DNA from: Actinomycetota bacterium
GTDB taxonomy: Bacteria; Actinomycetota; Acidimicrobiia; Acidimicrobiales; WLNW01
Direction of reading: 5' to 3'
NCBI GenBank assembly: GCA_009699605.1
Contig: WLNW01000019.1
Location: 1-32,844 of the forward strand
DNA length: 32,844 nt
Below the pieces are notes generated by a model, which was given only the letters and a program-made list of their open reading frames with translations, had not been told where the DNA came from and searched no databases. How positions within the stretch are numbered: position 1 is the stretch's first letter; each line of letters begins with the position of its first letter. Below are positions 21,656 to 25,577 of the stretch, piece by piece. The translations under genes and the position numbers were made by a program.

Positions 21656-22495
21656 TCAGCTCTGCGGGACGTAGATCCGCTGCCCGGGGATCAACGCGTC
21701 GCCCTCGTTCAGTGCGTTCGCCGAAGCGAGTCGGCGCAGGCTGAGGCTGAACTTGTCAGCGATCGATTGAATGGTGTCGCCGCTCTGTACGACCCACATC
21801 ATGCTGACCACGCCACCGCTCGGCACGGTGACCCGCGGGATGGTGCCGGGCGGTGGAGTCGGCGTCGGTGTGCCCATCGTGGTCCGCACGGCGACCGTGG
21901 TGGTCGTCGTGGACGCGACTGCGCTCGTCGCCGCGGTGGGCGCACTCGCCCTGGCCGGCGCGAGCGTGACGGGCGTTGCCACGCGCACAACGGTAGTGGT
22001 GGGCACGATGGTGGTCGTGACCACCGGCCCAGGCCGCGGCACGATGAGCACCTGGCCGATGCGGATCAGGTTCGGGTTCGTCAGGTTGTTGCGGGCGATG
22101 ATCTTGGCCGCGGTCGAGTTGTAGGTGGTGGCGATGCTCGTGACCGACTCGCCGAGGCTGACCTGGTGGCGCACCTCGCCCGTGGCGGACGGGACGGCCA
22201 GCACACGTCCGGCCGCGATCAGGTTTGGGTCCTCGATGCTGTTGTACGACGCGAAGGACTCCACCGACACGTGGTAGTCGTTGGCGATCTTCGTGAGCGT
22301 GTCACCGGGCTTCACGACGACCTCGTTGGTCGCGAGTTGCGCGCTCAGCGCGTAGACGGCGAGACCGACGACGGTCAGGCCCGCGCCCAAGAGTGAGCGT
22401 CGGGGGCCGGGACGAGTCGCGTCGGACGCATCGGCAGACGGAGCTTCGAGGGTCGTGACCGGGGCGCCATCCGGAGTATTGGAAACGACAAACAC
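21656..22495 (-). CDS. Membrane-anchored protein with three LysM domains
   Basis: This 279-aa protein has a short cytoplasmic N-terminus, one hydrophobic helix (about 34-55) and three LysM modules: about 58-101 (VKPGDTLTKIA), 108-152 (LGESVTSIA) and 234-277 (QSGDTIQSIA). The linker between the second and third is Thr/Ala/Pro-rich. LysM binds N-acetylglucosamine in peptidoglycan, so the protein probably sits outside the membrane attached to the wall. There is no catalytic domain. The GTG at 22495 has AAAGGA 6 nt upstream. The upstream TTG at 22525 would lie at the predicted transcription start and is rejected. A strong promoter with an inverted repeat lies upstream. Confidence 0.9.
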   Translation of the reverse strand: MFVVSNTPDGAPVTTLEAPSADASDATRPGPRRSLLGAGLTVVGLAVYALSAQLATNEVVVKPGDTLTKIANDYHVSVESFASYNSIEDPNLIAAGRVLAVPSATGEVRHQVSLGESVTSIATTYNSTAAKIIARNNLTNPNLIRIGQVLIVPRPGPVVTTTIVPTTTVVRVATPVTLAPARASAPTAATSAVASTTTTTVAVRTTMGTPTPTPPPGTIPRVTVPSGGVVSMMWVVQSGDTIQSIADKFSLSLRRLASANALNEGDALIPGQRIYVPQS

Positions 22496-22533
22496 GAGAT
22501 GTCCTTTCGGAACACCTCCGCCCAAGAGCCGGA

Positions 22534-22681: not shown

Positions 22682-24292
22682 TCAGGGGCGAGCGGAACGG
22701 CGTTCGTCGGCCCGACGTTCGGCGCTCAGTCGTTCGAGGGCCGGTTCGTTGGTGTGGTCCACGAAGCGCATCATCTCGGCGACGGCACGATGGCCAGCCT
22801 TGTCGGCGATGAGGCGGTGCATGCGTTGACCGATGTCGCGATACGAAGGGTGTCCCTGAGGGCCGGTGCGCAACTCGAGCGTGTGCATTGCCTCTCGGGC
22901 GTTCATCTGCATCATGAACCGCACCTTGTAGGCGAACGCGACCGCATAGCCCGCCTGCTCGGGGAACTCGTCGTGCAACAGATCGTGCAGCGCGGCGCTG
23001 CGCCGCATCGCATCGTCGAACCCCGCTTGCTCGCCCGCAGCATCAACGGCTTCGGGCCGGGTGTAGCCGTGGATGGGGCTGAGCTTCTGCCACTCGATCG
23101 TGAGCATGCGATGGCGCTGCAGGTCTCGGAACGCGCCGTAGTCGGCGAGGACGTCGAAACGGTAGGTCGGGCGCTCGAGTGCCCGACCGGGCTTGTGGCG
23201 CCGGTTGCGGCGCTGGCCGGTGTAGGCCCGCATCACCGAGAGGCGATCCTCGCCGCTCATCGCGCGGACACGCGCTTCGATGGTGGTCTCGGGCTGGTTC
23301 ATGTACGGGTAGAGCATCGACGCGACGAGTTTGATCTCGGCGTCGGGATCCCAGTCGACGAGCTCGACGGTGGGGGCATCGACCGGCTGGCTGTCCTCGG
23401 GGAACAACCGTGCGGCAATCGCCTCCATGGAAGAGCGGGTGTCGTCGAGGTATGAACTGGCCTCGCCGCCTCGATCGGGAAGATCGACGCGCTTGAGGAA
23501 CGACGGGATGACCTTGCGAAGCTCGGTGAGCATCATGTCGGCGTAGGCACGCGCCTCGGGCAGTGGATGTGACCGCATGCGCACGAGGAGCATCTCGTAA
23601 CCCTGCCCCGTGCCGTAGATGCCCACGTTCGACAGCGACGCCGCGGGCAGGATGCCTCGCACCGCGTCGAAGGCTTTGGCCTTGATGGCTTGGCGGTACA
23701 CGAAGTCCTTGTCGCCCGGCTGCTTGGGGACGGACTCGCGATAGAAGCGCTCCATGCGAGGGACGAGCTCGGCGTACGCGTCGAAGATGCGGTCCATCTC
23801 GCCGATGTAGCGCGTTCCGTAGGACGAGCGGAGCACCTCGGGGTCGCGGTAGTAGCGGTAGCGCCCGCCAAGCCGCGAGTCGTAGCTGATGTACCGCGTG
23901 GACTGCTCGAGGTACGACATCAGCCGGCCCCACTCGAGCACCTTGGTGAGCAGGTTGGACGCTTGCTCGCACGCAAGGTGTACGCCTCCGAGTTGCGCGA
24001 CGCTGTCGTCGCCGTACTCGAAGAACACCCGGTCGTATAGCTCTTCCGCGCGGCGCACGCCGACGGTCGCGTCGATGGATTCGTCGCCGCTGATGTCGAG
24101 GTCCCCGACGAACTCCTCGAGGAACAACTGTCGCAAGCTCTTCGGTGACCGAGAGTAGCGAGCGAACAGTGCCCCCTTCACGACCTCGGGCAGGTTGACG
24201 AGCGCGAAAACAGGCTGGTCGAGATTGGTGAAGTACCGGCGCAGGACATCGGCTTCTTCCGCCGAGAACTCCTCGGCGACGTAGGTCGTCAC
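22682..24292 (-). CDS. thyX: Long two-domain FAD-dependent thymidylate synthase (ThyX) homologue
   Basis: This 536-aa protein is about twice the usual ThyX length (about 220-300 aa) and reads as two ThyX-like domains. Domain 1 (about 40-270) has YGDDSVAQLGGVH and WGR-X7-S at 121-131 followed by TRY, where canonical ThyX has RHR-X7-S. Domain 2 (about 370-510) has LQRHRMLT with RHR at 393-395, and NAREAMHTLELR near 464-475, matching the conserved NxRE...LR block. ThyX makes dTMP from dUMP using FAD, NADPH and methylene-tetrahydrofolate. Whether this long form is catalytic is uncertain. GTG 24292 has TAGAGT 8 nt upstream; a TTG at 24301 is the alternative. Confidence 0.85.
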   Translation of the reverse strand: MTTYVAEEFSAEEADVLRRYFTNLDQPVFALVNLPEVVKGALFARYSRSPKSLRQLFLEEFVGDLDISGDESIDATVGVRRAEELYDRVFFEYGDDSVAQLGGVHLACEQASNLLTKVLEWGRLMSYLEQSTRYISYDSRLGGRYRYYRDPEVLRSSYGTRYIGEMDRIFDAYAELVPRMERFYRESVPKQPGDKDFVYRQAIKAKAFDAVRGILPAASLSNVGIYGTGQGYEMLLVRMRSHPLPEARAYADMMLTELRKVIPSFLKRVDLPDRGGEASSYLDDTRSSMEAIAARLFPEDSQPVDAPTVELVDWDPDAEIKLVASMLYPYMNQPETTIEARVRAMSGEDRLSVMRAYTGQRRNRRHKPGRALERPTYRFDVLADYGAFRDLQRHRMLTIEWQKLSPIHGYTRPEAVDAAGEQAGFDDAMRRSAALHDLLHDEFPEQAGYAVAFAYKVRFMMQMNAREAMHTLELRTGPQGHPSYRDIGQRMHRLIADKAGHRAVAEMMRFVDHTNEPALERLSAERRADERRSARP

Positions 24293-24407: not shown

Positions 24408-25577
24408 TCATGCGGGCCGCGTCGCTGCGACGCGCCTGCGCAAGTCATCGTCGAGCCAGAGATCGAGGAGGGTGAGCGCCATCGACTTCGCGCCGTCGAT
24501 GACCGCGCGATCACCGATGGCCGCACGAGCGTGGACCGCGAACTCGGTGGTGTGGATGGCCACCCCGGTCGGCGCGGCCTGCACCATCGGGTGGATCGCC
24601 GGGATGAGGTGGCTGACGTTGCCCATGTCGGTGCTGCCCGCAACCACGAGGTCGCCGGACGGTTCGACCGGGTCGCGGCCGATGCGGCGCGCGTGTTCGA
24701 CGTAGCGATCGAGCAGCGCGTGGTTGTCGATCATGTTGTCGTAGGCCGGGTCGAGCCAGGTGTGTTGCATCTCGCATCCGGCGGCCAGAGCACCCGCAGT
24801 GAGACAGGACAGCACACGGTCCTTCAGTACCGAGAGGTGCTCGGTATCGGGCGAACGCACGTACCAGTGGGCCTCGGTGTTGTCGGGAACGATGTTCGGC
24901 TTCTCGCCAGCTTTCGTGAAGATGCCGTGGATGCGCTCGTCGGGGCGGATGTGCTGGCGGAGTGCGGCGACGTTGTTGTAGCCGAGCACCATCGCGTCGA
25001 GTGCGTTCGCACCGCGCCACGGCGCCGCGGCTGCGTGGGCTGCCTTGCCGCGGTACTGGGTCATGACCTGGTGGTTGGCCAGCGTCTGCATGGACCGTAA
25101 CTCGGCGCCTGCCGGGTGCACCATCATCGAGGCGTCGACTCCGGTGAAGGCGCCGCGGTCGATCATGAAGACCTTGCCGCCGCCGCCTTCCTCGGCTGGC
25201 GTACCGAGGATGGCCAGCCGGCCGCCGAGCTCTGCGGCCAACGGGGCCAGAGCAAGCCCTGCGCCGAGGCCGGCGGCCGCAATGATGTTGTGCCCGCACG
25301 CGTGCCCAATGCCGGGTAGGGCGTCGTACTCGCACACCACAGCGACCTGTGGCCCTTCGGTGCCGACGCGTGCGTCGAACGCGGTGGGCAGGTCGTAGGC
25401 ACTGCGGGTCACCGGTACACCTTCACGCTCGAGCACGTCGGTGAGCAGGTCGTGGGCGAACCGTTCCTCGAAACAGAGCTCGGGGTGGGCGTGGATCTGG
25501 TGCGACACGTCGAGCAGCAGGTCGGCCCGTCGGTCGATGTCCTCGAGCACTCGGCGGCGGATCGCTTCGGTATCCAT
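24408..25577 (-). CDS. M20 family amidohydrolase/peptidase
   Basis: This 389-aa zinc amidohydrolase of the M20 family resembles AbgB/AmhX-type enzymes that cut N-acyl amino acids or p-aminobenzoyl-glutamate. The metal motifs are visible: GHACGHN near 110-116, PAEEGGGGK near 147-155 with the catalytic Glu pair, the dimerisation-lid segment TQYRGKAAHAAAAPWRGANALDA-type beginning near 193, and STDMGNVSH near 318. The N-terminus has the usual HAHPELCFEE. It is cytoplasmic. The ATG has no Shine-Dalgarno sequence, but TAGCCT lies 6 nt upstream, suggesting a leaderless message. The substrate is unknown. Confidence 0.92.
   Translation of the reverse strand: MDTEAIRRRVLEDIDRRADLLLDVSHQIHAHPELCFEERFAHDLLTDVLEREGVPVTRSAYDLPTAFDARVGTEGPQVAVVCEYDALPGIGHACGHNIIAAAGLGAGLALAPLAAELGGRLAILGTPAEEGGGGKVFMIDRGAFTGVDASMMVHPAGAELRSMQTLANHQVMTQYRGKAAHAAAAPWRGANALDAMVLGYNNVAALRQHIRPDERIHGIFTKAGEKPNIVPDNTEAHWYVRSPDTEHLSVLKDRVLSCLTAGALAAGCEMQHTWLDPAYDNMIDNHALLDRYVEHARRIGRDPVEPSGDLVVAGSTDMGNVSHLIPAIHPMVQAAPTGVAIHTTEFAVHARAAIGDRAVIDGAKSMALTLLDLWLDDDLRRRVAATRPA

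Follow-up and report, generated by a model that had tools for sequence, protein, structure and literature searches.

Canonical flavin-dependent thymidylate synthase (ThyX, EC 2.1.1.148) is a single-domain homotetramer with chains of about 200-260 amino acids (aa) that releases tetrahydrofolate (THF) and is encoded as the alternative to thyA, usually without folA. In crystallised ThyX-type enzymes the site for deoxyuridine monophosphate (dUMP) is built from two subunits, with R74, R78 and R174 from one and E86, S88, R90 and R147 from its neighbour (PMC5003785, PMC3498832; Thermotoga maritima numbering, used here for all canonical positions). The nucleotide in PolB, the uridine monophosphate (UMP) C5 methylase of polyoxin biosynthesis, is contacted by F79, R82, H83, R86 and R193 of one monomer and by E94', S96', A97', R98' and R166' of the neighbour (PMC5003785; the monomer of R86 and R193 was read from the unprimed notation). 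By our own motif alignment these residues convert to F71, R74, Q75, R78 and R174 and to E86, S88, G89, R90 and R147. The assignment for PBCV-1 ThyX, with Gln75 and Arg182 (= R174) in monomer A and Ser88 and Gln89 in monomer B (PMC3498832), agrees with that of PolB. Docking to Helicobacter pylori ThyX likewise assigned Arg197 to chain A and Arg109/Tyr110 to chain C (PMC4632503), and H53 of T. maritima is contributed by a third monomer (PMC11940539). From Chloroflexi other than Dehalococcoides, Valas and Bourne (2009, PMC3224940) reported a ThyX with a domain duplication; it was uncharacterised and, for most Chloroflexi, the sole thymidylate synthase. Here we describe a tandem ThyX gene of an actinomycetotal genome, located in the window, i.e., the whole analysed stretch of 32,844 nucleotides (contig WLNW01000019.1).

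An initial sequence-only reading had proposed a fusion of two ThyX units of about 536 aa, and the fusion was confirmed. Pfam Thy1 (PF02511) matched two stretches of the protein with a total of 118.9 bits against a cut-off of 24.8, and each half alone exceeded this cut-off in the genome search (61.7 and 55.9 bits). Profile-profile comparison with canonical ThyX sequences from genomes of the same phylum matched domain 1 (residues 88-273) at an E-value of 3.8e-13 and domain 2 at 2.1e-16; thus both halves matched and the case of only one ThyX domain was not borne out. AlphaFold2 gave, on an alignment of 54 sequences, a confident monomer model with two domains of ThyX fold (pLDDT 90.9, pTM 0.88). 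The best PDB match of the whole model in Foldseek was the T. maritima enzyme TM0449 with a TM-score up to ~0.73 (by target length), that of domain 1 alone was Mycobacterium tuberculosis ThyX with ~0.6. A direct PDB sequence search with the single tandem protein returned a chance match only; the family profile was required. The upstream frame is open as far as position 24643, and the alignment of relatives begins at the annotated GTG.

The tandem gene is the usual sole candidate for thymidylate synthesis in its carriers. In its own genome (96 % complete) neither another Thy1 protein nor ThyA or a thymidine kinase was found, which answers the check for thyA or a normal thyX suggested earlier. 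Ninety-nine genomes of the same order, representing 61 families, were screened as relatives: 95 encoded the tandem protein, nearly all in full length and with about 40-79 % identity, and an assembly or frame artefact was rejected on this ground. The relatives contained no canonical ThyX above the TIGR02170 cut-off, three ThyA, 26 thymidine kinases and two FolA, which is the genomic setting of a ThyX. Both folA genes immediately follow thyA (G060 C8:48396-49669; G041 C270:11445-12724), as in the usual thyA-folA pair, so FolA accompanies ThyA rather than the tandem protein. Scarcity of FolA is expected if the tandem enzyme, like ThyX, returns THF rather than dihydrofolate. An even draw of 296 Actinomycetota genomes comprised 88 with the tandem protein and 120 with canonical ThyX without any overlap (Fisher p 9e-26, uncorrected for kinship). 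Within two families (f80, f104) some members carry the tandem and others the canonical protein, and a class-mate without the tandem protein (G269) carries ThyA. One complete genome with the tandem gene (G031) is apparently that of Acidimicrobium ferrooxidans DSM 10331, which lives as an autotroph on ferrous iron and CO2 (PMC3035218). Neither ThyA, canonical ThyX nor thymidine kinase was found in this genome; an autotroph without a salvage kinase has to make thymidine monophosphate (dTMP), which leaves the tandem protein as its very probable thymidylate synthase.

The earlier reading had also considered that synthase activity was lost in favour of another flavin or folate role, in which case dTMP would be salvaged or made by an enzyme not recognised as such. 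Corynebacterium glutamicum indeed has an atypical single-domain ThyX that is dispensable for thymidylate synthesis, the strain relying on ThyA (PDB titles 3ge9, 3fnn), and a score below the TIGR02170 cut-off would fit such a loss. However, nearly all carriers lack ThyA and canonical ThyX, FolA is also missing, thymidine kinase is present in just over a quarter of the relatives and absent from the genome under study, and the key dUMP-contacting side chains survive in one half or the other. We regard a loss of activity as very unlikely. Four relatives of 91-96 % completeness (G029, G085, G096, G097) revealed no tandem protein, ThyX or ThyA; these are likely assembly gaps, as sister genomes of three have the tandem gene, and auxotrophy is also possible. 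About 40 Actinomycetota genomes without tandem protein, canonical ThyX or strong ThyA (e.g., G113, G128, G132, G140) had only a partial, weak ThyA-like match, covering roughly positions 80-235 of 266 and in some cases with stops, which may be a ThyA that has diverged or some other nucleotide enzyme.

The active-site residues are partitioned between the two domains. The canonical motif RHR-X7-S-x-R-Y is incomplete in both, reading WGR-X7-STRY in domain 1 and RHR-X7-KLSP in domain 2. All residues quoted by eye in the sequence-only reading proved correct, namely W121-G122-R123 and S131-T132-R133-Y134 of domain 1, R393-H394-R395 of domain 2 with K403 in place of the serine after X7, and the NxRE...LR block of domain 2 from N464 to R475; domain 1 also retains the third arginine of RHR (R123) and the R147 equivalent (R212), the latter not listed there. 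In an alignment of 167 tandem proteins, domain 1 has at the position of R78 tryptophan in 141 and arginine in 22 sequences, at H79 glycine in 158 and at R80 arginine in 164, and E86, S88, R90 and Y91 are each present in all 167. Domain 2 shows the reverse pattern: R393 (R78) and H394 (H79) are invariant, R389 (R74) is found in 165, N464 in 163, R466 in 164 and R475 in 167 sequences, whereas the position of S88 is variable (P 35, R 34, K 28, Q 14, A 10), R90 is replaced by serine or threonine, Y91 by proline, and R147 is variable. For the third arginine of the domain 2 RHR the count of 167 is not safe, two inspected Bacillota sequences reading RHN. The same split is present in distant tandem proteins of about 23-26 % identity from Bacillus and Paenibacillus plasmids and the phage Tunturi_5. 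The location of two residues differs between lineages: N163 and R165 are both in domain 2 in Actinomycetota and, as read by eye, both in domain 1 in the Bacillota proteins (ANGRAW), and R165 alone is in domain 1 in the phage protein.

By the published subunit origins, domain 2 carries the side chains that monomer A contributes and domain 1 those from monomer B, with the full set in neither, so that a normal site could not be built by either half alone. The complementation between the halves suggested earlier is supported by this mapping. An alternative in which a single half is catalytic, through homomeric sites of its own, and its partner is a pseudo-domain with a structural or regulatory role has in its favour that RHR, NxR and LR are retained only in domain 2, which at first sight resembles a ThyX. 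Yet domain 2 is devoid of S88, R90, Y91 and R147, and Thermotoga ThyX becomes much slower when S88, R90 or Y91 is mutated (PMC8316439); domain 1 in turn has lost R78, H79 and, in the ungapped register, R174, and its invariant E129, S131, R133, Y134 and R212 speak against a purely structural role. Such a division into a working and a silent half is highly improbable.

The pattern is less clear for residues on the side of flavin adenine dinucleotide (FAD) and folate. The position of H53 is occupied by Asp95 in domain 1 (164 of 167 sequences, His in three) and by P368 in domain 2, adjoining the highly conserved GxRxNRRxxPGRxxE motif that replaces the canonical H53-E58 helix. This motif may provide a new cofactor contact, to FAD or folate. 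Together with an aspartate in domain 2 at Q75, the changes at H53 could point to a ThyX-type nucleotide C5 methylase with another main substrate, e.g., UMP or a modified pyrimidine, and a ThyX homologue with UMP activity exists in PolB (PMC5003785). A gene that is nearly universal, occurs mostly in single copy and excludes other thymidylate synthases fits an essential role in dTMP supply and not a secondary metabolism, and phage and plasmid homologues are located near genes for dCMP deaminase or dCTP deaminase, two enzymes that contribute to the supply of dUMP. A different main substrate is thus extremely improbable.

In our preferred reading, the tandem protein is with high probability an active flavin-dependent thymidylate synthase with a composite site, its activity being suggested by the sole-gene status and the residue conservation. 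Its two diverged ThyX domains would be joined covalently as a pseudo-dimer, and two polypeptides would form a tetramer of four domains, as is usual for ThyX. Domain 2 would bring the RHR motif and the uracil-activating arginine (R78, R174), domain 1 the substrate recognition peptide and the phosphate-binding arginine (E86, S88, R90, Y91, R147), and a third domain would close the pocket for FAD and folate. The partner domains of a composite site may belong to one chain or to two chains. The reciprocal pairing would be degenerate, and by ThyX symmetry two of the four ThyX-type sites are predicted to work, one per polypeptide.

Several observations weigh against this reading. The split is not fully exclusive, R80 being kept by both halves. 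In domain 1, Arg238 and Arg240 flank the register of R174 by one residue on each side; M239 takes the place of R174 in the ungapped register, which fits the predicted strand/helix boundary, and one gap would give R238 instead. The R74 position is a lysine in domain 1, and Q75 is changed in domain 2 as stated above. The contacts form about four sequence segments, hence under random loss the split would match the subunit faces by chance in about 1 of 8 cases. The tandem protein scores 47.1 bits against TIGR02170, the canonical ThyX equivalog, and remains below the threshold of 87.9 bits, and the literature searched contained no data on activity, FAD binding or oligomers of a tandem protein. The composite-site argument draws its weight from the addition of the functional evidence to the residue split.

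The named loci with about 67-77 % identity to the window protein belong to Acidimicrobiia (Actinomycetota), which places the window in this group. Annotated tandem proteins outside the phylum were encountered in the phage Tunturi_5, with a host among Acidobacteriota, on Bacillus and Paenibacillus plasmids and on a plasmid labelled Parabacteroides; all are annotated as (FAD-dependent) thymidylate synthase. A scan of viral contigs revealed one close relative only. The protein of the plasmid record labelled Parabacteroides distasonis (L217, NZ_OY725790.1) is 46 % identical to that of the window and far closer than those of Bacillota or the phage, indicating either a recent transfer or a mislabelled contig. 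In a tree of the halves, the domain 1 sequences of all lineages formed one clade (96 % support), and a second clade with 100 % support united the domain 2 sequences of Actinomycetota, Parabacteroides and the phage. Bacillota domain 2 was not resolved, and domains 1 and 2 did not group together; an internal duplication and a fusion of two ThyX genes are thus not distinguished. The sequences suggest a single old tandem gene as the likely origin. It is reasonably probable that the tandem proteins constitute an ancient ThyX subfamily of obligate asymmetric enzymes, with a site partitioned by subunit face and one half of the sites dead, serving essential dTMP synthesis and with FAD-side residues resolved differently in separate lineages. 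This subfamily would cover a large part of Actinomycetota beyond the best-studied groups, together with an Acidobacteriota phage, Bacillota plasmids and, as reported, Chloroflexi. A separate ThyX-like protein of 286-298 aa, circularly permuted in appearance, was observed in two genomes (L188:2431-3291, plus strand, in G136; L190:2316-3212, plus strand, in G148). Its RHR-like segment comes first and the normally N-terminal segment ARVSYL...HWSPMEH last, and it matches PHROG 85. Other members of these two families carry the tandem protein instead, and similar matches below the threshold were present in G107, G171 and G255.

Table. Position of the tandem ThyX gene, its domains and active-site segments in the window (Tm, T. 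maritima numbering; SRP, substrate recognition peptide)
Feature	Position	Strand	Remarks
Tandem (two-domain) flavin-dependent thymidylate synthase	22682..24292	minus	536 aa; GTG start, stop 22682-22684; Pfam Thy1 twice, AlphaFold2 model
Domain 1 (aa 1-302)	23387..24292	minus	ThyX fold, "SRP / subunit B" face; best PDB match M. tuberculosis ThyX
Domain 2 (aa 303-536)	22685..23386	minus	ThyX fold, "RHR / subunit A" face; matches T. maritima and H. pylori ThyX
W121-G122-R123, degenerate RHR of domain 1	23924..23932	minus	R78 and H79 lost, R80 kept
E129-Q-S131-T-R133-Y134, SRP of domain 1	23891..23908	minus	Tm E86, S88, R90, Y91
D209..R212 of domain 1	23657..23668	minus	Tm E144..R147; R212 167/167, D209 165/167
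R389-D390-L-Q-R393-H394-R395, domain 2	23108..23128	minus	RHR motif and R74 equivalent
K403-L-S-P406, lost SRP of domain 2	23075..23086	minus	S88, R90, Y91 absent
N464-A-R466-E...L474-R475, domain 2	22868..22903	minus	Tm N163, R165, R174
G359-x-R-x-N-R-R-x-x-P-G-R-x-x-E373, domain 2	23174..23218	minus	Replaces canonical H53-E58 helix

Directly downstream of the tandem gene, a protein with three LysM domains is encoded on the minus strand (21656-22525). The neighbours, an M20 peptidase, the LysM-repeat protein and a DEAD helicase, gave no functional hint, and no recognisable thymidylate-related gene adjoins.

If the preferred reading holds, a large branch of Actinomycetota relies on an enzyme with two halves, both incomplete by canonical standards, for the supply of an essential DNA precursor. 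As an experiment of nature, the family would show which ThyX residues belong on which subunit, an interallelic complementation run by evolution. With only half of the sites and with faces that can be mutated separately, such a ThyX could help settle the mechanism with respect to the residues serving FAD, folate and dUMP. For genome annotation, calling by the canonical thyX equivalog or thyA alone would falsely report thymidine auxotrophy in tandem-only genomes.

Literature searches for a tandem ThyX retrieved the 2009 remark on Chloroflexi only, and no paper analysing its active site was found. The architecture had thus been noticed before; the division of the residues according to subunit face and the role as sole enzyme appear undescribed. 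The duplicated ThyX of Chloroflexi (PMC3224940), likened here by its description only, has very probably the same architecture. Among phage proteins, the profile PHROG 36506 ("thymidylate synthase", 491 positions) is of double length and is matched by the phage Tunturi_5 protein in two stretches (E 3e-27); this family is phage-borne, and the window protein matches it weakly (E 5e-4). PolB (PMC5003785) has the ThyX fold in common, and its crystal structure provides the subunit assignment, but it is a single-domain homotetramer with UMP activity in secondary metabolism. With the canonical ThyX of T. maritima and M. tuberculosis, both halves share the fold, the gene shares the genomic role, and the motifs RHR...S.RY and NxR...LR are shared once both halves are added together. 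In contrast to these enzymes, the tandem protein has two fused, diverged domains with the site residues split between them, misses the equivalog cut-off, and is predicted to have half of its sites degenerate.
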